Position numbers and translations under genes: made by a program. Source: a candidate division SR1 bacterium Aalborg_AAW-1 (lineage in GTDB: Bacteria; Patescibacteriota; Gracilibacteria; Absconditabacterales; Absconditicoccaceae). Taken from it: a DNA stretch of 64,000 nucleotides. This document shows, piece after piece, positions 1,786-56,781 of the stretch. Location of the stretch: NCBI GenBank assembly GCA_001007975.1, contig CP011268.1:558001-622000 (forward strand), given 5' to 3'. How positions within the stretch are numbered: position 1 is the stretch's first letter; every line of letters begins with the position of its first letter. Under the pieces are notes generated by a model, which saw only the letters and a program-made list of their open reading frames with translations, was not told the DNA's origin and made no database searches.

Positions 1786-4700
1786 ATGAAAACAGAATTT
1801 TCAAAAAAAACAAAAGTATCTGTACTACTCATCATCTATCTGGTCGCTCGATTGTATCAATCATGGGAGGCTGCTTTTAGAAGTGATGTTTTTGCTGATA
1901 TTACAAAAACTGATACTAATATTGTTGCTGTCTTCGTTGATAAAGACTTGTATAGTAACACAAACCTCAAAAATTCACTTGAACGATATACGACCCAATA
2001 TATTCAATGACAAATATCTAATAGTAAGGCAGTAGTGTTCCCTTTGGATACCACTGTTGTGAAATCATGGGACATTACTAAACTGCTTGAAAATCTTTAC
2101 TATGATGGTATTGAACAAGAACCATCAACGCTTGAATGAGTTATTCTTATTGGTGACAAAATACCACTTCCTGTTGTCAATGATAATGGTGCTATTTTCC
2201 CGACGATATTGCCTTATACCGATTTTGATGATCCAAAATTTTATCGAGATGCTAAAACTCAATATTTTCTTCCTAATGGAGTAGCTAAAGCACAACCGGA
2301 GGTCCGACATAGTGTGATTAATCTAGAATCGAATGTGTCAGATTATGTCGTCTATTTTCAAAAATTGAAGTCTTATTATCAAAATCCTTCGTCCTATGTT
2401 GGTGATCGTGTCTGGTATGAAGATTTTATTGATCAGAAGGGATCGTATAATGACCTTAATCTCGTAAGTTATATGAACAAATTTCTTTTTGCAGAAGATT
2501 TAGCATATCATAGATATAATCCGTTACTGATTGATTTCTTGAACCAGAAAGAATCACAAAAAAAAGATGAACTTATGGGATGACTTGCAAACTTGACAGG
2601 TGAATCATGATCTTATGCGTCACAAGTATGAGCAGTATTTTCTGGTCTGATGGCTGATTATTTGGCTACTGATACTTCTTCAGCTGATCAAATTCCTACT
2701 GTGTTTGTTGATGATGCCTTACAAGGATTTCAAAAATCATATTCTGACCTCTATGGAGTAACGAGTACGGCTCGTATGAGAGATAATATTCTAGCTGGTG
2801 GTAGACGAGATACGACACAAATAGACACTCATTCTACAAAAATAGAATATTTTGATCAACTCTATACTAAACAATTATGACAAGCTTCTGTTCCATTGCT
2901 TGCAGAAGTGAATAAACAATTTGAAGATGCGCTTACAACCGCTGTTCGTAATAATGATTATGCACTTCGTATTGCAATACCTCAAGATGCTCAAATTCAA
3001 AAACACATTATAACTAAAACATGGGATGTAGATAATGCTATCAGTGATGCACAACTTGCTCAATTAGCTCAGCTTGTGAATGGAAGTTATTATCATGCAT
3101 GAATTTATGAAGCATTTTATTATGGTAAAAATGCAAGTACAGTAACAGGAATAGATCAGACAAGTATATTTCTATGATCAGATAATATCTTGGATTATAA
3201 TCTAGATAATCTTACCACTCTTACTTGATATAAGAGTAATGCGAGTATAGGAGTTTCACAAGGTATATTTTCTCAGTTTGTAGAAGCAAATAGATGATAT
3301 GTGACGAGTTTGACACAACCTGACTTAGATAAAAAAACGAATAATGATATCTGTGGAAATGATATGGATAATTTTGTCCAGTATCGTGATGGTTTTTTGT
3401 GATGAAACACTCCTTTAAATCTGACTTGATGAACGAATGGACTTGAATTGGTCAATAAGAGATATGATAGAGGAGGAAAGTCAAGTTGGCTTATTACAAA
3501 CTCTTGATTATTTGGTAGTAGTGTATGATTACTTCCTCAGGCAGGAGAGATTCTTGATGTTGCATGATCGAGAAGAGTAGCTAATCCTCTTGATTGGATG
3601 GTGGCTGCTAATCTTCAATGATGATATCTTCAAAGAGTAGCGTACAGAGATGTTACGTATATTCCATTATTATGATGAACATGGTCAGCTTCTTGGAAGC
3701 AGGTTAATCCTTGTGATCTTAATAATCTTAATTCAGAACCACTCCAAAATCATAATATCTATAATGCAGCCCTCCTCAATCAGACATGATATCAAAAAAT
3801 CTTAAAAATCAATAATACAACATTACTAACAACATCTCAAGCATGTCCAGCTAATCCTAGTGTATGATCAGCTTGTTTCCCTTTATCAAATAAAAGGTCT
3901 ATACCTGCAGGACAATTTGTTCAGAAACAAGAAGTAAACTATAAGCTTATTGATTCTCTTTCTATTCATAATGCACCTAATTCTGAACAGGTAAGTCAAT
4001 TGGAAACAACCACTCCATCAAGACCTATTGATTCAGTCAGATATATCGCTTTTAAGGGTATTGGTTGAGATCAAGTCCAATTACCTTATCCAAATTTGTA
4101 TGAAATAGCGGTCTATAAACAAGATACTCAGAATCCTAATAGATTGATATTAAAAACGCCAGATGAGATTAAAATAGCTATCCGCGATTATCTTTCTTCG
4201 TTAATAGAGTCATATAATGCACGTTTAACAGAACAATTAAATAAAAAAGACACATACTATAATTCTAATGCATCACTATTTACAACATTAGGAGCTATAG
4301 ATTCTTTGGCAAGCCCAAACCGCAGCTATACGCTCCTTCAACCATCTTTATTTAATGGGATGGTATCTGATGAGTTTATTGATTCTCTTGCACAGATTCT
4401 TTATGTGCAAAATTCTTTTGTTCCGCAAAAACAAAAAACATCAAATCTAAAAGAAGAATATGACCAGTATTATACTATTGCCAACATTTCAAACAAAAAA
4501 GAAACAATTATTAAAAACTACTTGACGCAACAGAATCCATCCTCTTTATTAGCATTGCCATGATATCAATCTAATGGCTATGAACTCATTTCACTCGTGT
4601 CTGATGGTGATGACAGTATTGCTACTCAAGAACAACCATCATGGTTGTTGGCATTGCAATCACAAATTACAGAATATCAGAACTATCAAAATGTGATCAA

Positions 4701-7700
4701 TACAAGAGGAGATACTGCATGATGAGATGAGTCTATTCCAACAGATGCTTGTTCAGCTCCTTATGGAGAACCTGTTCCTCTGATTGATTTGAGTAATATG
4801 TCTTTCCCTTGGTTTAAGGTTTTTGCTTGTTGGTTAGAAAATATTGGTGTTCCGAAAGTTACGTTTGATTTTAATAATGCTCAATGACCAGTATTTACTT
4901 CAGATTTCTTTAAATGATTTTTGAGTCAGGCTACGCCAAATATTGGATGAATTGCAGAATCATACACGCTTAGTGCACCAACCTCATCTCTTGCTATGAC
5001 TAGTGAAGAACAAGCATTAGTGAATAATCTTGATCTGTTTCTGAGCACACAAACCTATTCATTACAAGATAATGTACCTTTAGACCTCAAACCATCACTC
5101 CTTCTTACTCAAAAACAAGATATACAAAACCTTACTCTTCGTATATCATCAACAGGAGATTCCTGTATCATCATAGATGGAAAAAATACTTGTACGACTT
5201 CTTTCCAAAGCACTATTACAGAAAAGAATTATATTTCTCCTTATCTTATTCCTTCTCAGCCGAAAGCATGAGCTACTACTTTGATTGTACAGATTTGTCG
5301 TTGATCAGTTTGTAGTAGACAGACACTTCCATTCTTAATAACGCCATGATCACTTCATAGTGCAGAACTTTCTCTTCCGTCCACAAGAATATTGTCTAAA
5401 AGTCAAATTCCTGTACAAGTAGTAGCAAAAGATAAGTATAATAATGTCTTATCAACAAGCTTATCTCCTTTAAAGATACGTACTTTGACAGGTTCTTTTC
5501 AGTGATGAAGTACAGAATTTTCTCTCTCTACATTTCGTGATGTAGGTCAACTCATCGCTCCTTCAAGTACTCAACAAGAAGAAATTGATTTGACTCTCTA
5601 TGATAAAAATTCTACTTTACTTGCAAACAAAAAGTTATCAGTACTGTCTGGTTCTCTTCTTGTGGCATCATCGAATAGTTATTATAACTCATCAAATAAT
5701 TCCCTTACCTATACTCTTCCTAATAAAAAATCACAAATCTATCTTCCAAATAATAATGTTAATGTTGGATTACTACCTCAACTCTCTCTCAAACTCCAGT
5801 GATCTGATGGTAAGAGTATAGCATGACCGGTTATCGTCTCGTCAGAGCAGTGACTGTTTTCTGTTTATGAAAAATCAACTTCTACTTCATCAGCGATTAT
5901 TCCGTCTACAGGATTACAGCAGACGAATACGCTTATTTTTAATGGAACAGACAATATTGATATTGTACTACAACCGAAGCTGAACAACAACATTGGGTCA
6001 GATACTCTTCTTTTCCAATATCCTGATGGAAGTGTTTCTCGTATACCCGTCACGATTCGTCCTGCACAGCAAGCAGCCATTGTTACTGTTCAGTCTAATA
6101 CAACCCAATGATTGCTTGACAATGAAGTTACAGTGCCATTAGTGATTCAATTGATTGATGATTGGGGAAATATCAGCCCTTATAATCAAACATTGCAAGT
6201 CAGTACGGTAGGATCAGTTTCCTTACAATGACCTACAACAGTAACGACAGTATGATGAACAGCCCAAATTATTGTGAAATCGGATAATCTCTGATGACCA
6301 TGATATGTCAAAGTATCCCCTACTGGTTCATGATCAATAATTCCTTGATTATGGACTACCAAAGTAAAAAAATCTATCATACCAACCTCAAACATTAATG
6401 GATTGTACTTGAATCTGATGGGAACAAGTCGATGAAATACGACGGATAGTGAGACAGATTATTATAATACAGTCCCTAATATGTTGAAGACTTCGAAAGT
6501 GCTAGCAACAACGACTGAACTTATTTCTCCACAGACAGTTCCTACTACTGTTCTTACTATCAACCCTGATGGAAGCTTGAGTGGATCTCAAGCAGATCAG
6601 TGGATTATTACTTCTTCTGGTACTATAATTATAGCGCAAAATCCTGATCTCAGACAGCAAGTCACGTTGTGATCTATAAACGAACGGTCTCGATCCTCAA
6701 ATCTCGTTACTACTACAGAAAGTTATCCTGAACAGTTTTCACTGTATCCAAAATTATTACGATCTCAGTGATCGACCAATAGTGAAAAATTATTGACTCT
6801 TGTAGATTCTACTCTGGTTTATGATCCTAATAAACTTGATTCGATCGAGGAGTCAGTCGCTCCTTCAAATAATATTGCTTGGAGAAATAATCAACAACAC
6901 CTTGTGCAATTTAGTCAATGAAAAACAGTTGGTGAAGCGACATTATTGAATGCTTCAGAGTTTTTGATTAACTATGGTGATCCTTTGATTACAAGAACAC
7001 AACGTAATGAGACCCTTACCTGATCAACTATGGATGCTTGACCATGACAACTCGTTGTAAGTAATACGACAAAGACTGTATTGAAGGCATTCTCATTAGA
7101 TGTTAATAATGATAGTCTTGAAGATATTGTTACCGTGTTTACAGATGGTTCAGTGATATGGTCGAAACAATACGGTGGTAAAGATTCTATCTTTGTTGAG
7201 ATGTGACCATTATTACAAATCTATGGAACTATTAAAGCCGTATATGGTGCAGATACTCAATGAGATGGATTTGGTGATATTATCGTACAAACTGAAGAAG
7301 ATGATTTGAGAGTATATACGAATGAATTAGGGATTTTTAATGTAGACGGATATCCTCTTTGTATTGATGCTGAGCAAGATCAACAGTTACCCCAACGTAT
7401 GACGAATGTAGATCAATGGTTTGTAGAAGATATGGATAATGATGGTACATCAGATATTGTTCTCAATAAAGCAGGAGAAATTAGTATTGTCTATGGTGGT
7501 AAAGCAAGCAATGGATATAGTTATATTTCTCAGAATCAACATGGATGTGATGTAAATTGGCAAACAAGACAAAATAATAATAAGAAAATTGTTGATTATT
7601 TATGAGTTCAACTTCATACAGGTAGTACAGTAGATTCAAGTTTGGTTCGTTGGAAGTGATTGACAACTTCTCCAGCAACAGATACTGATGGTAATGAAAT

Positions 7701-10700
7701 AGATACTACATCAGACAATCCTCTTATTAGTAGTCAAATTGGAACAACATTTAGTCCTGGGAATTCAAGTCCATTATGAGTTCCAAACATTTCTACATTT
7801 CCTGTAGAAGATATTGTAAATCAAGCAAGTAGCAATCTTTTAAGACGAAGTGTTTCTCCAATAGATTTTTCACCAAGTTATGAAACATTATCATTAGATG
7901 ATATAAGATATATTAGTGCATCGGCATTAGAAAATTCTGATCAAATTCGTGTCAATAAAACATATCAAGACCTGAATTGAGGTATACTCAAAAAATGAGA
8001 TAGTGTAAAGGTAACGGTCCAAATATCATGATTAAGAAATGATTCTTTGACCTATATAGAACGTATCAATGGTCCTTGGAATATTACTATGCAAAATAAT
8101 ATTATATCATGATGGAATGCATGAACTTTACCATCAAGTGCAACTTATAACAGTATCGAACCCCAAGGTGACTTCTATTTTGTTGTAGATAATATTACCT
8201 TGTGAGCGTCGAATGCAGTAGAATTTTCTTATAATCTTGTGTTTCAATGATGAGCGCCAGTGAAAATATCAGTTTCAGATAGAAATCATGATGATTATAA
8301 AGATATTTCGGTATATCCGCTTGATAGTTGTTCAAAATTTTTACGAACATATACTAATACCAAATCCCTTCTTCAGTCATATAGAATATACCAAAAAGAA
8401 TTTATAGACATTTGATCTCAACTAGAAAATTATCATACTGCTGTGACACAATGATCACAAAATTTCTTGTCTGGTATGGTTAATAGTATAGCTAATATTA
8501 CGGGCTCATCACAAATTCAAGATATATTAAATGGAGCAAGCTCAGAAAATATGTCATTTGGTAACTTTTTTAATCAAGTTGTTGGAAATGGATGATATTC
8601 GTCATTCAATCTCAATGTTAGTTTGATGGGGGAGTTTGATGCGCAAGTGAGTGAAAGTATACAAAATACTTTAGATAGCATCTGTTCATGAGGATGAGCA
8701 CAAGATCAATCTTGTAATAGTTGATTACCTGTACCATTTAATATGGCATTTTTGAGCCCTGGAACATATAATATTATGTGATGTACTCCTAAAGTGCCAC
8801 AAATTGATAATGTGTTTCCCAAAGATGGATGATTCCCTATTTTTGCATTCCCAGCAAATTTTCCTCTTACAACACCAGCCTGAGTTTATAATCTTCCCCT
8901 TCCATTCCCATGGTGATGATTTTTTAAGTGAGAAACTGATAGCTATTGATATTTCGGATTTCCATCTCAAGCATTAGTTAAGCCCGCATATTCATCACAA
9001 ATAAGAATCTATCTTTCACCTACATTGACTCAGCAGATGGGTATGGCGATATGTTTTGGTCCACAAACCGTAGGTAAGAAAATACCAGATCCTTTTAGTT
9101 CGATTGGTTGAAATTGTATTGTAACGAAGGTAAAAATGCCATCCGGAACTTGTAATATATGAGATGGTGAAAATTCACGATGATTGTCTGATCAAGATAT
9201 GCTAGATCTTGCAGAATTTGGTCAATGTACTCAGACTAAATCTCATGGAACTGCAACACAACCAGCGTCAACACAACCAAGTTCTCCCTTTACCATGGTC
9301 AGTATAAATAGTCAATGATCGACATCTAATCCATTTCCTCCATGAACTTATTTTGGTATTATTAACTTTGAAAAAACTCCTGTTCTTCTTTCAGATATGA
9401 ATGTAACACAGGGAGTAATTCTGCAATGAGGGAAGGCTGTTCAACCGCAGATTCAAGGATGATGAGCGAGAGGTATGGTAGCTTGTATTATGAATGATTG
9501 GCTCGATAGACAAACCAACTATATTATCAATAATCTTACCAATATGCAGATTGGAGTATATCTTCCAGATCTAACACAATTATGACAATGATTTGATACA
9601 CTATGACAACAAATAGGTAATGCTGATTTCTTTACAGGATTGAATATACAAGCATGAGGACAAGCTAATAATCCTAATACCTTCTCTTGAAATTTTATAT
9701 CACAAGTAAGAAATTCTACTATTAGCCAATCCCAGACTAATAATCTCTCTACAACAATTAATAATCCATTTAAAACGATAGAAAAACTTTTTGAACAGAC
9801 CCCATTAATTAATATCACGACTCAGGACGTGGCAGTGAATGTTCCTATGATTTATAGTGAAGATATCACAAGATATGAGGCTCATTTGAAATCTTGGATT
9901 GAGAGAAATAAACAAGTTGCTACTGATCGAACAACATTATTACAATGAGTATTTGGTATTTGCTGAAGAAATTATCAACTATGATGATGAAATGCACCAT
10001 ATACACTATGAAACAATCCTTTTGATCCTGCACAAATGACAGCACTCAAAAACCAACTCCAAGCGACACGTACGAATATGACGAGTATTGTTGAACAAGC
10101 TCAGGAATGTAAAAATAATTGATGGAAAAAAGAATGAACGTGTGCTGATTTTATGAGTTTATATGATATAGGTTCTACTAATGAATGAGATCAGACGCTG
10201 CTCTACATGGAAAATACTATGAACATTAATAGTGCTTGTTTAAATATTGTGTGATGAGATCTCAATACGAGTATCGCTAATATTATGACTATCACTTCAC
10301 AAACTGACGCCTTTGAAAATAGAATCAGAGAAAATATAAAAGTATTAGATCAATACAAAAGATTTCCACTTCAATTATATGAATGGATACATGTAACAGA
10401 TAGATATCTATGAGAGGTAACTTCTATGGTTGAAAATTTCTTGTGATATATCAATACGTGGCTCAATCTTAATGCAACGAGATTTGAGCAATATGTAGAT
10501 GCTATTATTACTATATCGACTGCGTTACAAACTTGGCAAGCAATTCTTGACTTAAGTGTTAATCGACAACAAAAATGTTCTACTTGTACTGTAGATAGCT
10601 ATGATGCCTATGCTTGTAGTTTGTGATTCTTATGCGGACAGTTAAAACTCCCTATTCTTAGACTTCCTCCCTTTAAAATACCAAATATTTATATCGATTT

Positions 10701-13700
10701 GACTCATATCGATCTTGGGATGGATATTCTTTTACCTAATTTCCAATTTGTACCAACAAGTGTACCTTTGATTGAGATTCCTGACTTGCCACAACCACCG
10801 AGTATCGTGGTATGAGGTGATATAATGAATGGTAATGGATGACTGCAAGCACAATTGAAGCAGATAGAAGATATCCAAAAAGTTTTAGATAAATTTACTC
10901 AGCTTGTCCCTACACAAATTCCACTTTCAGTACCAACTATCCCCTTACTGCCAGCACCTCCAACTCTTCCAGAATTACCTTCTTTTATTCCTAATATCAA
11001 TATAGAGCTTCCGGTCCTGCCCCCAGCACCAAAACTTCCAAGGATTGCACCAGAGATTGAAACAGCAATTAATGTTGTGAGTTTCTTTAGTGATTTATAT
11101 TGTATTGTGAAATGATGAATAGGTCTTGTGGGAGAAAATAATGTGAAAACAAGAATTGAACAACTTACACAAAGAACACGAGAGATACCTCTTTTCGATA
11201 ATATTAATCTGACGAAAGATATGTCATATCAACAAGATAAATTGGTGTGATTTGATTTTAAAATAGATGCTTTCGTTAACTTTACGATGAATTTTACAGC
11301 AGTCTATGACCTGATTCAGGGGTTGGCTGATCAGATTAATGATCAAACGAAAAAGCTTACTGATTGGAATCCTAATCAGGCTATTGGAACAGACAAACTT
11401 CAAGAATATGCAAATAAATTAAATGATCAAACACAACAAAATATTGATCTCACGAATCCATTTGGATATTCATCTCAGGATGATGATTCCCTTGTAGCTC
11501 TTACTGAAGAACAACAGAATATTAAACAAGTGAATGAGTATATGATGAGTTTGCCACAAACACCACAAGAGAAAAAGTGAATGTTGCAAGAACTAGTGGC
11601 TCGTGTGAATACTCCATCAGAATTTAAACCTCAAACAGAACGTTTGACTCAAGTGCAACATGATGTCGTTGAATCTCTCTATAATTCTCGCACTAATCTC
11701 AAACTTTTGTCTTCTAAAATCGAAGATTATGATACTTTTATTGATTCGTTAGATTCAAATACTACCTATAGTGTGTATGAAGGGGATTCTGTCTACACAG
11801 CATCATTATTTGATAACACAGCACAAATCGAACTTCCAAAAGAATCTCTTGTATCAGATTATGTTTCTCTCCAGAAGAAATTGTTATCAAATTATGATAA
11901 AGGATTATATCAAGTAGCAACAGAAGATAATAAAACTGATGTTACTAACATTAGAGATGAAATAGCATATCTTGATAAATGATTGTCTCTTGCGGAAACG
12001 TTATATACTGATAAACCTTCATCACTTCAAACTATCTCTTATCTTCAAAGAGAATATAATGCCCTGGGCAATCTCGAATATAATAATCAGGCAGCAATGT
12101 GTTCTACATTGGGTAATGTGACTAATCCTACGAATGAGCTCTTAGCTTCTTCAACACCGTGAATAATACCTAATACTTATCCAAATGTTCTCCTTTCAGC
12201 CCAACTATGATCGTCAAGTACTGCATCGAGTAGTAGTTATAACAGCACTAATCTGTACGATTTTGCAAGCTATAAAAACAAACTTATGGTTCCTTTCCAG
12301 AATGGTACAGGAACTCGTTATGTCGATGTTGTACAATCTGATTATTTTTCTCAACGTAATAAATGATATCAACTCACTGAACTCAACTCAGATGGCAAAC
12401 AAGATGTGATTCGTCGAGATCAATCTCAAGTATGGATTAAATATGGAGAACAAAATACTGCTCATACAAGCACCACGCTCCATACCCATACGAATAAATA
12501 TTATGTTGCACCAATTTGGGATGATAGTAATGAATGGGAAGAAAGAACTAATAAGAATGGTTATATGAAGATAAATGGTACATCATTTAAACTCTATAGT
12601 CCTGATTGGTCGGTTAAAAATTTACGTGTCAGATCACAAGATTATGATTCGTTTACTATCTCTTGGACGAACTCTACGAGACAACAACCAGTTGATGGTT
12701 ATGTCCTTGAATTAAATATGTTACCTGATACCTATCATCTCAAAGCTCATGAAGATCTTCCAAAAGCATTGCAATCACGTTATGTTCTTCTGTTGCCACA
12801 AGATCAGTTTACAACATGATGATATCTTTCTATCTATAATCAATTAAGTAGCAAAAAAATGGAAAATCTCATGCCTGACACCTTGATCGATGTCGTTCCT
12901 TATAATGTCGAAGCTGGACAGATAAGTTATACATTTACTGATATTGAAAGAGCATGGTATTATACCCGTATTGCATCTGTCGTATCCAATGATTCCAAAA
13001 AGCCAGTGTATAGTCTTAATAGTCCATGGTCACATCATGTTGTTGCTTGACAGCAATTGATAGCAGATAATGATGGACCTACACCAGAAGTTCGTCTCAT
13101 TAGAGAACAGAATAGTGATGTTGTTGATACCTGACTCAATCCTCAGTGAATTGTCAATACTAGATATAGACTTGATATACAACGAGATGATCCAAGTGGT
13201 ATATTGAGTAATCAAATCATGAACGCGTCATGAGATATACTTTCAAATCAATCAGGAGCATCGAATAATCTGTCAGGGTTGTATTTTGTTGCGAATCAGA
13301 GTATACAATATCGTATTCATGCTCAAGATGGAATGAATAATGAGTCCAGTGAAACGGTTGTAGTCAACATTACTATTCCGAGTATTCAAATCGAAGATAT
13401 TATTGAAGATAATATGATCCCATGATGATTGAATATCCTTGCATCAGTAAGTAGGGGAATGGATGATGGTATTGTAAAATTTGAAAGAAAAAGAAATAAT
13501 ATACGATCTACGTTGTCCAACCCCAATAGTCTATCAGGAATAGCTAATCCATTTAGTTATAGTCTTTGATTCGATCAGACCATAGTTACTTGAGGTGTAT
13601 ATAATCAAACCAATGGTATCGAATTATTTGCTTCTAATGGTACAAGTGTTGCTACAGTGGATAAAGAGAATGGACAAATTACTATTGCTCCAGCATATGT

Positions 13701-14079
13701 CTCTAGAATACAACTGAGATCAGATTTTTCATCACAAGTTCCTGCTATACTCTTGTATGATGTGCAAGAAAATAGGACGTTGTTTACCATTAAACCTAAG
13801 ATGAATAGTACATCATTCCAGGTATTCCCTCCTTATACTCTTGAATCTCTTACATGAGTAACCTATGGTTCTTATAGTGGATGATCATGTATTAAAAATA
13901 CGAGCGATGATTGTATTGTTGTAATGAATAGTGCATGATCTGTGATTGTACCCTCTCCTTATCATACCAGTCTTGTTGGGTCTTCTTATTCATTTACCAA
14001 TGGTGTTACAACAATGGAATTGTCAACTGCATGATGAATTCCAATTGGGTCATTGAGTTTTACTGCTACATTACCATAA
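1786..14079 (+). CDS. giant secreted/surface protein, 4097 aa
   Basis: One open frame of 4,097 codons with very many in-frame TGA(Gly) and a TAA stop at 14077-14079. The N-terminus has a basic start and a hydrophobic segment (about residues 10-25), so it is probably exported. Recognisable parts: Ig/invasin-like beta domains around residues 1430-1530 (for example the IDDWGNISP strand), FG-GAP/VCBS-like blade motifs around 1765-1930 (DNDGTSDIVLN and QGDGFGDIIV), a proline-rich stretch around 2965-3095, another FG-GAP-like motif near 3530, and a fibronectin-III-like domain around 3605-3755. I see no C-terminal membrane anchor. Large proteins of this kind in episymbiotic or predatory bacteria are often proposed to mediate cell contact; that role is inference here. 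Translation is probably coupled to the next gene through the TAATG overlap. Confidence 0.9.
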
Positions 14080-49692: not shown

Positions 49693-50979
49693 TTATTGTT
49701 TGACCCAAATACTACCTTGTACAATCCATGTTCCACGTGCGTTAGTTGCAGATGTGTAGGGAATATTTGCACCAATAGTATTATTAGTAAAAGCATTGCT
49801 ACCGATAGCAGTAACAGAGTTAGGGATAGTAACTTGAGAGATTCTGTTGTATTGAAAAGCTTGATTACCGATAGATTGGAGAGAATCAGGGAGAGTAAGA
49901 GAGGAAAGATTATTACCATAGAAGGCAAGAGTACCGATAGAGGTAACAGTCGAAGGGATTACAACAGAAGAGATATAATTAGTTTGGAAAGCACTGTTAG
50001 GGATGGAAGTTCTGCCCTCAAGGAAGGTAACGGCAAGGTTGTTGTTATTAGAGAAAGCATTACTACCGATAGCAGTAACAGAGTTAGGGATAGTAACTTG
50101 AGAGATCTGATTGTATTGAAAAGCTTGATTACCGATAGATTGGAGAGAATCAGGGAGAGTAAGAGAAGTAAGTCTATTGCCATAGAAAGCAAGATTTCCG
50201 ATAGAGGTGATGCTCGATGGAATTTCTACAGAAGTAATATTTTGTGACTGAAATACGCTGTTTCCTATAGCAGTAATCCTTTCTCCTCGAATAGTATAAG
50301 GAATGATTACATTTTTAGGACATGAGGCTTTATATGAGATAATTGTTCCGTTGAGTAGTCCAAAACAATCTATTTGTGTTGCTCATTGATTTCGTTCTTT
50401 TTCTTCTTGAGTGAGTTGTAGTTCTTTGAGTCCTTGTCAGTATTTTTTGTATGCACCATCTTTATAGTGATCTATAGTATCACCACAGGCAGAAGCATTT
50501 CATTTTTTAGATTCGGCAATTGATGTAACAGAAAATAAGCTACCAGCAGGGTTAGTATAGTATGCATATGAACTTCATCACTGTATACATCATCAATTAG
50601 TCATTGCTTTTATTCCCTTATTGTTTGGATCTTTAGGGAGATAATTGAAATATTCTTGTATTTTTGGATCTAATCCATCAATAGAACTTCACAAACTTTG
50701 TGCATATGCCTGTGGTATAATAAGTCCATATAATGAACGATTTGTGTATTCAAATGCTGTATATTGCGGTGTTGGGAATTTGTCATACTCTAACTTGTAA
50801 GCATTTATACCCATAGTAATAAGTCTAAGATCACTATCACGAGCTACATCACGTGCACGCGCTTGCATACCTATCACTCTTGGTAAGATAGCGGTAGCAA
50901 GCAATCCAATAATAGCTACTACCACAAGCATTTCTACTAATGTAAATGCTGGCTTTTTTGTAATAGAAGATAGTTTCAT
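49693..50979 (-). CDS. type IV pilin-like protein with long leucine-rich repeat array
   Basis: A 428-residue paralogue of 33916-34932. Prepilin signal KKPAFTLVEMLVVVAIIGLLA, pilin body (QARARDVARDSDLR, SYAYYTNPAGSLF, SKKGNASACGDTID), then BspA/LRR_5 repeats from about residue 225 to 415 (NLAFYGNRLTSLTLPDSLQS, QVTIPNSVTAIGSNAF and so on). An 88-residue block is nearly duplicated, so the repeat number may vary between strains. It is expected at the cell surface via the pilin pathway. Such a repeat is a classic recognition module, so a role in binding another cell is a reasonable guess. Confidence 0.87.
49790..50219 (-). repeat. 264-base near-exact repeat in the LRR gene
   Basis: Segments about 166 bases long starting at 49790 and 50054 are nearly identical, offset by exactly 264 bases (88 codons). 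The copies differ by scattered base changes. Such tandem copies recombine easily. Confidence 0.75.
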
Positions 50980-53458: not shown

Positions 53459-53487
53459 TTGACTTTTATATTGTTATTTTATATATT
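53459..53487 (+). promoter_or_regulatory. promoter of the adhesin-like gene
   Basis: TTGACT, a 17-base spacer and TATATT, with an A-rich leader without Shine-Dalgarno to the ATG at 53529. Confidence 0.65.
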
Positions 53488-53528: not shown

Positions 53529-55136
53529 ATGAAAAAAGTAATGAAATTTCTATTCGTATGTGTAAGTATGATCTTACACGCCCAAGTTGGTATTAATAAT
53601 GAAGCTCCTTTAGCGACATTAGATGTCACAAAGAACTCAGTCGTATCTACCATCAATAGTGGCATACTCATCCCACGATTGAAAAAAGGTGATGTTACTT
53701 CAATGACAGAAGGAGTAACGGCCGTGCAGAACAGTTTACTTATCTATGCTACAGAGCCATTTTCGACAGATGTGTCTGTTTTGAATGATCCTGCTAACAG
53801 TAAGTATTATTGGATAGATCGTGAAGGGTATTATTATTACAATGTGAATTCATTGAAATGGTTGCGTTTAGTAACAACTGAACCTACTGGCTTAGAAAAC
53901 ATCGCTCTTAGAGATGGAACCAAAAAATTTGCGTGGAGATTTATTGGAATAAATCCTAGCAATTATGCAACAATAGGTAAGTATGCTGTGGATATGCAAT
54001 ATGTCCCAGCAAATTTATCTGAATTGCTTGTAACACACCCTTCCTTAGGTCCTATTTCTTATAGTAGTATAAGAAGTTTTAATCCAAACTATGGATCGGC
54101 TCTACCTGGTGCTAGTGGAGAAAATTCTTTCGTAACTGGTGTGATGAATATTTCATCTGGATTGGCTTCTCAATCTATGGGAGCAGCTAATATTTCATCT
54201 GGATTAGCTTCTCAGGCATTTGGTGTTGGTAATCTTTCTAGTGGTGCCGGTGCAGTAAGTTTTGGTGCACAGAATATTTCTTCAGGAGATTATTCAATGA
54301 CGGCAGGATCAGGAAATACTGCAACTACTGATCAAACTGTTGCTATGGGCGTTGCTAATATATCTGATGCACTGAATGCTGTAAGTATTGGCCAAGAGAA
54401 CCAAAATTATAGTCAGGCAAGTTTTGCTCTTGGTAATAATAATGAAGTAGGTGTACAAGGTATAACAAAGTTTGGGTCTATAGCAATAGGACAAGAAAAC
54501 CAAGTTTTTTCAAGTGCATCTTCTGCTATAGGAGCTAATAATATAATTGAAGACAATGTAGATGCTTCAGTAGCATTAGGTACAGGTATTGTACTTAACA
54601 ATATTGATATAGCTGGAACAACTTTTTCATTTGGTAGTTATCCTACTCTTGAAACAATAATGGTATCAAATGTCGATGCTCCAAGAAGAATTAATTTTGG
54701 AAATGGTAGTAGAAATGCTTTGACAGCATTGATCACAAATAGGGATGCATTCACTATTTTAAGAAACGGAAAAGTAGGTATAAACTATGATAACTTTGAA
54801 TTATCAACTCATGCAGGACAAAGCGATGCTATCCTGCAAGTGAATGGCAATGGTCAAATGAAAGGACTCTATACCAATATAAGAATTGGTAATACTATCC
54901 TTGCTGATGATCATACTGTCATCTTGACGGGTAATGTATCGTTGCCCACTCCTACTACTACAAATAAGGGTAGGACTCTTGTTCTTTGTGGAGATTCGTC
55001 CACATCCAGAATGATATCTGGTGCACTACAAGACATGGGAGGTACGTATACTTCCGTATCCACCGCTAACGTTCCTGGAGAGAAGTGTTATACATTTCAA
55101 TCTACCGGATCCGTATGGTGGATCATCAGTAGATAA
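53529..55136 (+). CDS. YadA-head-like secreted adhesin, Bacteroidetes type
   Basis: A 535-residue protein with signal peptide MKKVMKFLFVCVSMILHA and a mature N-terminus QVGINNEAPLATLDV, a hallmark start of Bacteroidetes secreted proteins. Residues about 195-370 hold YadA-head-like repeats (SMGAANISSGLASQAFGVGN, SIGQENQN, ALGNNNE, AIGANN and others), giving a left-handed beta roll. The C-terminal part, after a linker, is a small compact domain with paired cysteines. No autotransporter barrel is visible. All of about 54 glycines are GGN, a striking contrast with its neighbours. It probably binds a surface. Confidence 0.85.
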   Translation: MKKVMKFLFVCVSMILHAQVGINNEAPLATLDVTKNSVVSTINSGILIPRLKKGDVTSMTEGVTAVQNSLLIYATEPFSTDVSVLNDPANSKYYWIDREGYYYYNVNSLKWLRLVTTEPTGLENIALRDGTKKFAWRFIGINPSNYATIGKYAVDMQYVPANLSELLVTHPSLGPISYSSIRSFNPNYGSALPGASGENSFVTGVMNISSGLASQSMGAANISSGLASQAFGVGNLSSGAGAVSFGAQNISSGDYSMTAGSGNTATTDQTVAMGVANISDALNAVSIGQENQNYSQASFALGNNNEVGVQGITKFGSIAIGQENQVFSSASSAIGANNIIEDNVDASVALGTGIVLNNIDIAGTTFSFGSYPTLETIMVSNVDAPRRINFGNGSRNALTALITNRDAFTILRNGKVGINYDNFELSTHAGQSDAILQVNGNGQMKGLYTNIRIGNTILADDHTVILTGNVSLPTPTTTNKGRTLVLCGDSSTSRMISGALQDMGGTYTSVSTANVPGEKCYTFQSTGSVWWIISR

Positions 55137-55143
55137 TCATAGA

Positions 55144-55170
55144 AGGCTCAGATTTCTGAGTCTTTTTTAT
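55144..55170 (+). terminator. terminator
   Basis: GGCTCAGA pairs with TCTGAGTC (a TT loop) and is followed by a T-run. Confidence 0.7.
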
Positions 55171-55224: not shown

Positions 55225-55393
55225 TACAAAGTTATGGAGTTCTTTAACATCTTTGTAGGAAACGATATCGAATTGATATTCAAGTACTAACGGGCAATCT
55301 CTAGCTAGCAACAGAACAGAGATATAAATATAAAAAACCGGAGTAAAAGAAAATGCCGATAAGTTTTTCTTAAAAATAAAAAATAAATTTATC

Positions 55394-56754
55394 ATGGAAC
55401 ATGTAAATATTACAACAATTTTAATTATCTTACTAGTCATTCTTGTCTTCATTTTACCACTAGTATTATCATTGTTTTTTAGAGTGGTAGTACCAACAAA
55501 TATGGTACATATTGTTCAGTCTAATAAAAAAACAACTTCTTATGGTACGGGCAAAGAATCTGGTAACGTTTATTACAAATGGCCAAGTTGGTTTCCTGTT
55601 ATCGGTGTTACTCGAATTATTTTTCCAGTAAATAACTTTAATATTAATCTGGATTCTTATGAAGCTTATGATAAGGATAGATTACCATTCATTCTAGATG
55701 TGACGGCTTTTTTTAGAATTGCGCAGATACTAATAAAGCTGCTGAAAGAGTTTCAAGTATTGATGAACTTCATCAACAACTTAAGGCTATTGTTCAAGGA
55801 GCAGCTCGTAAGATCTTAGCATCATTTGATATTAATCAAATTATGACAGATAGAGCAACTTTTGGTCAACAGTTTACTGAGGAAGTGAAAAATGAGCTTC
55901 AGAGTTGGGGTGTTGAACCGGTAAAAAATATGGAATTAATGGATTTGCGTGATGCGAAAGATTCTAATGTAATTTCTAATATTATGAAAAAAAAGTCATC
56001 AGAAATTGAAAAGGAAAGTAGAATTGAGGTTGCTAATAATAGACAAGCTGCCGAAACAGCAGAAATAGAGGCACAGCAAACAATAGATATCCGCAAACAA
56101 GAATCTGAAGAGCTTGTTGGTAAAAGAACAGCTGAGAAGGATAAAGTAGTTGGTATTGCTGCTCAGCAAGCAGAACAAGAAATAAAAACTGAGCAAGCAA
56201 AGACAATAGACAAAGAAATGGAGGTGAGAAAAATTGAAGAAGTAAAAACTGCAGAAATCACAAAATCAGCTGCTATTATTTCTGCACAACAACAGAAAGA
56301 AACTACAGTTTTAGAAGCACAAGGTAAATTAGAAAGTACTAAATTAGATGCCGAAGGGATTAAAGCTCAGGGTGAAGCAAAAGCTGATGCAGAAAAACAA
56401 ATGCAAATGGCTCCTGTTGAAGCTCAAATTGCTTTAGCAAAAGAGATTGGAGATAACGAGGGTTATCAGCAATATCTTGCAATTCAAAAATCTATAGAAG
56501 CTTATACTATAGTAGGTACTGAGCAATCTAAGGTTCTCCAAGCAGCAGACATTAAAGTACTCGCATCTGGTTCTTCTGGAAATGATGGATTAAAAAATGT
56601 GAATGATTTATTTAGTGCAAAAGGTGGATTGGCACTTGGAACGATGTTAGAATCTCTAGCTGCTACTGATCAAGGTAAAACTTTATTAGAGAAGGTATTT
56701 ACTAAAAAAGAATCGTCGCCTGAAATAAATGAACAAGAAAAACCCTTAAAATAA
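55394..56754 (+). pseudogene. flotillin/SPFH protein, frameshifted
   Basis: A membrane-associated SPFH protein in two frames. The first part, MEHVNITTILIILLVILVFI (one transmembrane helix), runs through a beta SPFH start to ILDVTAFFRI. From there the reading moves frame: the expected ATTGCAGAT is ATTGCGCAGAT, a GC duplication at about 55721-55727. The second part continues ADTNKAAERVSSIDELHQQL and the long Glu/Ala-rich coiled coil to LLEKVFTKKE. Without the shift the first frame stops at TAG 55817-55819. The full protein would be about 453 residues. No glycine is TGA. It could be a real pseudogene or an error. Confidence 0.7.
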
Positions 56755-56781
56755 ATAGTTTGTAAACAACTCCATAACATC

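Follow-up and report, generated by a model that had tools for sequence, protein, structure and literature searches.

A secreted, barrel-less YadA-head-like protein of probable Bacteroidota type in a CPR bacterium that reads TGA as glycine

How a gene for a secreted protein with a YadA-like head and a Bacteroidota-like N-terminus came to reside in the recoded genome of a CPR bacterium, and what its product might do there, is the question raised by the locus in Table 1. The coordinates refer to the window, that is, the whole analyzed stretch of 64,000 nucleotides. The bacterium is a code-25 CPR organism of the Gracilibacteria/Absconditabacteria type, and it is tiny and probably host-dependent. 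The gene occurs as a single copy in its one-contig genome of 1,044,756 bases (98.3% complete, 1.5% contamination). A preliminary description of this DNA had called the genome recoded, and this is borne out by the glycine codons, 2911 of 8470 (34%) being TGA in 464 kb sampled; further, the neighbors of the gene are open only under translation table 25. The reading frame of the head protein itself is identical under tables 11 and 25. The explanation that we favor, and consider rather probable, is that Flavobacteriia or their phages fairly recently supplied this bacterium with the gene, whose product would be a secreted, barrel-less, probably trimeric protein with a YadA-type head.

Table 1. Features of the head-protein locus (positions in the window)
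Feature	Position	Strand	Remarks
Promoter-like site TTGACT-17-TATATT	53459..53487	+	10/12 consensus match only; number of such sites in the region near chance
CDS, secreted YadA-head-like protein, 535 aa	53529..55136	+	TGA-free; ends in TAA
Sec-type signal peptide MKKVMKFLFVCVSMILHA, residues 1-18	53529..53582	+	Judged by eye
Flavobacteriia-type N-terminal module QVGIN...TLDV...GILIPRL...LLIY...YYYYN...W, residues 19-117	53583..53879	+	Match to a Chryseobacterium plasmid protein
WRFIGINPSNYATIGKYAVD linker module, residues 118-160	53877..54002	+	Viral-contig matches; absent from the other CPR genomes searched
YadA-like head, 14-residue repeats (SGLASQAFGVGNL...), about residues 190-351	54096..54581	+	Sequence and model
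Post-head element INFGNG...RDAFTILRNGKVGIN	54690..54785	+	Also behind heads in phage-type and CPR head proteins
C-terminal domain ending VILTGNVSLPTP...STGSVWWIISR	54786..55133	+	No barrel; no sorting motif by eye
Terminator-like hairpin 3' of the gene	55141..55166	+	

The promoter-like site lies 42 bases upstream of the ATG, and Shine-Dalgarno sequences are rare genome-wide in a crude scan and uninformative. The hydrophobic signal is immediately followed by QVGIN (residues 19-23). A degenerate DNA pattern for this motif occurs once in the window, where 0.03 occurrences are expected by chance, and once in the whole genome, its reversed-pattern control giving none. The arrangement in which a signal peptide directly precedes (Q)VGIN..P..T.D, a feature of the Flavobacteriia QVGIN proteins, is present in the head protein, and small proteins on several viral contigs also carry a hydrophobic signal and then directly QVGIN. 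The sole database match of the N-terminal part (residues 1-117) is the Chryseobacterium plasmid protein, and it is weak (26% over 121 columns, E 0.2 in the database and 2e-5 pairwise). The Bacteroidetes-style N-terminus proposed earlier is supported.

The linker, taken at first to be Flavobacteriia-like and then tested, has the consensus WRxxGxNPxNYxxIGxxAxD. In an alignment of twelve sequences, numbered so that residue 118 is column 1, the invariant columns include W19, R20, G23, P26, Y29, I32, G33, A36, and D38. A DNA pattern derived from the linker hit 13 loci on viral contigs, where the encoded proteins carry the linker and then head repeats; their trait, WRxxGx(N/D)PxxYxxIGxxAxD ahead of the head, is present in our protein. 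A profile of this linker matched no other genome among 380 of the phylum and 49 of the family, the match in the own genome being there by construction, since the query was included in the profile.

The head agrees with solved YadA-type heads both in sequence (CbpF, 4e-7; a second CbpF entry, 2.7e-4; YadA, 1.3e-3; BpaC, 2.6e-3) and in a model, in line with the earlier assignment, and the Pfam family PF05658 matches only below its cut-off. A low-depth AlphaFold model, of mean pLDDT 54.7 overall, has the 14-residue beta-roll periodicity with pLDDT about 79-93 in residues about 198-257, and superposes on the BoaA head with 1.3 A over 99 columns at 28% identity. A single-sequence model (pLDDT 35) was discarded as useless. 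The absence of a barrel, also asserted in the preliminary description, holds: a Pfam search of the protein returned no family, and so no YadA_anchor barrel was found. No C-terminal T9SS sorting domain was among the Pfam matches, the NCBIfam matches were far below cut-off, and the C-terminus was otherwise judged by eye. The C-terminal domain has no relative in the plasmids or phages searched.

The closest matches across several modules come from viral contigs and a Tenacibaculum phage. Linker, head, and post-head element align to the fibre-type protein L108 with E 2e-18 (small local database, no composition correction), and L105 aligns across the same three parts with a pairwise E of 3e-9. These and two further IMG/VR fibre-type proteins (L103 and L107) share with our protein the linker WR(L/I)IGR(D/N)P.NY..IG..A(I/V)D, the head, and the post-head element, but are longer, and their reading frames as read have neither the signal peptide nor the QVGIN module. 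Also encoded on the L105 contig is a DUF4832/DUF4874 protein that has a signal peptide, and we judge both this protein and the contig to be of Bacteroidota type. Of the other viral head proteins, L103 has matches in phages of Flavobacterium, Tenacibaculum, and Verrucomicrobia. The hypothetical protein UXQ88755.1 of Tenacibaculum phage Larrie resembles ours in having a signal peptide, a YadA-like head, and no recognized barrel; a linker GLE..YRL...AVDLS and a post-head element of the RSNALEIFKNG type are similar by eye only. It differs in its N- and C-terminal parts and in being a phage gene, and BLAST aligns the head alone (31%, E 5e-4). Two pattern scans of genome contigs, to which the direct search of Bacteroidota genomes was confined, gave no match and no close donor, and several scans of viral, phage, or plasmid sequences gave no full-length donor.

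The viral and Tenacibaculum phage matches could mean that a Bacteroidota-type or broad-range phage left this gene behind, as a receptor-binding or accessory gene and not a cellular surface gene; moreover, a published study reports phages that interact with CPR as well as non-CPR bacteria (PMC10746230). We nevertheless regard this origin as unlikely: no phage genes were recognized in the immediate neighborhood inspected, and PHROGs has no match for the head protein. The signal peptide, although suitable for a secreted product, does not separate the phage from the cellular reading, since the Larrie protein has one too.

Of the 49 family genomes, only its own has the full-length protein. In two other family genomes the head repeats find matches, and these contain TGA codons. 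Matches in the 380 genomes of the phylum are confined to the head repeats; in all, about 430 other CPR genomes have relatives for these repeats only (25-38% identity). Outside the head, the relatives found are of the Flavobacteriia or phage-fibre type only, and the best hits are therefore not restricted to CPR. The two family members (G005 and G008, other Gracilibacteria) have barrel-less YadA-head proteins, at least in the stretches read, and share with ours the 'NGKVGIG' element behind the head; the post-head 'RDAFTILRNGKVGI' element was also seen behind heads in the viral proteins and in CPR head proteins. It could be supposed from this that the gene is native to CPR and acquired its Bacteroidota-like N-terminus by shuffling or convergence. 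This we hold to be very unlikely, since both relatives differ in the N-terminus where it is readable and have many TGA glycines but no WR linker, which none of the other CPR genomes searched contains. Their repeat arrays, longer than ours and with TGA glycines, were seen at loci L003 (G005:C7) and L002 (G008:C62).

A Bacteroidota-type origin of the head protein is supported. None of its 54 glycines is encoded by TGA. The 464 kb contain 325 ORFs with a length of 150 aa or more, of which 124 have at least 25 glycines, and the head-protein gene is the only one of these without TGA (rank 1 of 124); a beta-binomial fitted to the remaining ORFs gives P about 0.002, a value that applies to a single gene which the finding had singled out beforehand. 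TGA is likewise absent from several genes with 15-22 glycines. The runners-up, identified from their N-termini as DnaK-like (1/44), S1-like (1/33), and FtsZ-like, are apparently conserved native core genes, whereas the head-protein gene is not a conserved core gene. Non-TGA codon usage was tried as a discriminator between donor and recipient and rejected, as it gave no separation, the gene lying inside the range of native genes. Since these codon choices look native, the donor would have been similarly AT-rich, or amelioration is partly done. The native-like codon usage and the low TGA of some native core genes speak against the transfer, as do the weak N-terminal match and the lack of a close donor in the scans.

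The adjacent flotillin-like gene also has zero TGA and is frameshifted, as might be expected if a Bacteroidota fragment had been mis-joined into the genome in assembly. Such a chimera is highly improbable, given the completeness and low contamination of the single contig, the composition and codon use of the segment, which match its flanks, and the CPR relatives of the flotillin-like gene that have TGA codons.

This flotillin/SPFH-like gene (55394-56754) has one frameshift near 55720 and 0/21 glycines as TGA; other Gracilibacteria have full-length relatives of it that contain TGA codons. An 11-base inverted repeat, GTTATGGAGTT, stands on both sides of it (55231-55241 and 56768-56778), and the sampled 464 kb contain it nowhere else in exact form. 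The neighbors of the head-protein gene are a penicillin-binding protein gene, the flotillin-like gene, and glyA, and no partner for anchoring was identified. Elsewhere in the window, a possible surface-displayed binding protein (49693-50979) has BspA-type leucine-rich repeats joined to a pilin-type N-methylation motif, and a 4097-aa ORF under code 25 (1786-14079), with a sub-threshold FG-GAP match, possibly encodes a surface protein.

We infer both the direction and the recency of the transfer into this code-25 CPR bacterium from Flavobacteriia or a phage of theirs. As the gene ends in TAA and contains no internal TGA, it could have been translated correctly from the outset. If the gene is expressed, as we infer, the product would be exported via Sec, and a left-handed beta-roll head would form with beta-rich N- and C-terminal modules on either side. 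The head would most likely be trimeric and extracellular or loosely surface-attached; since no anchor was found, the protein may be released or held non-covalently, acting as a binding or self-associating fibre outside the cell. Host binding or mimicry is plausible, and the bacterium might use the head protein to touch other bacteria. That the Bacteroidota host of this recoded parasite was itself the source of the gene, and that the parasite displays the self-associating surface protein to bind or mimic that host, seems quite unlikely to us.

We know of no hosts for most Gracilibacteria. A gene that is seemingly a recent loan from Flavobacteriia is a sign of contact with them and offers a testable host hypothesis. 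Ornithobacterium hominis is a member of the Weeksellaceae. In a nasopharyngeal study, an unclassified member of the Gracilibacteria grouped with this species (PMC13183296), which for the present genome is only a lead. The gene also suggests a route by which standard-code genes may enter a genome with TGA as glycine, namely with no internal TGA and with a TAA stop.

Among known systems, the trimeric autotransporter adhesins YadA, BoaA, BpaC, and Fusobacterium CbpF have the same left-handed beta-roll head repeats, but in the head protein neither their stalk nor their C-terminal membrane anchor was found, and because it lacks the YadA_anchor barrel we do not file it as a type Vc trimeric autotransporter adhesin. 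In Gracilibacterium BD1-5, a hypervariable putative attachment protein contains a TGA-free repeat shared with Colwellia, a non-CPR bacterium, for which transfer and convergence were both considered (PMC6851277). There the repeat alone is shared, whereas here several modules look foreign. The present gene is an interesting case of probable horizontal transfer rather than a novel kind of system.
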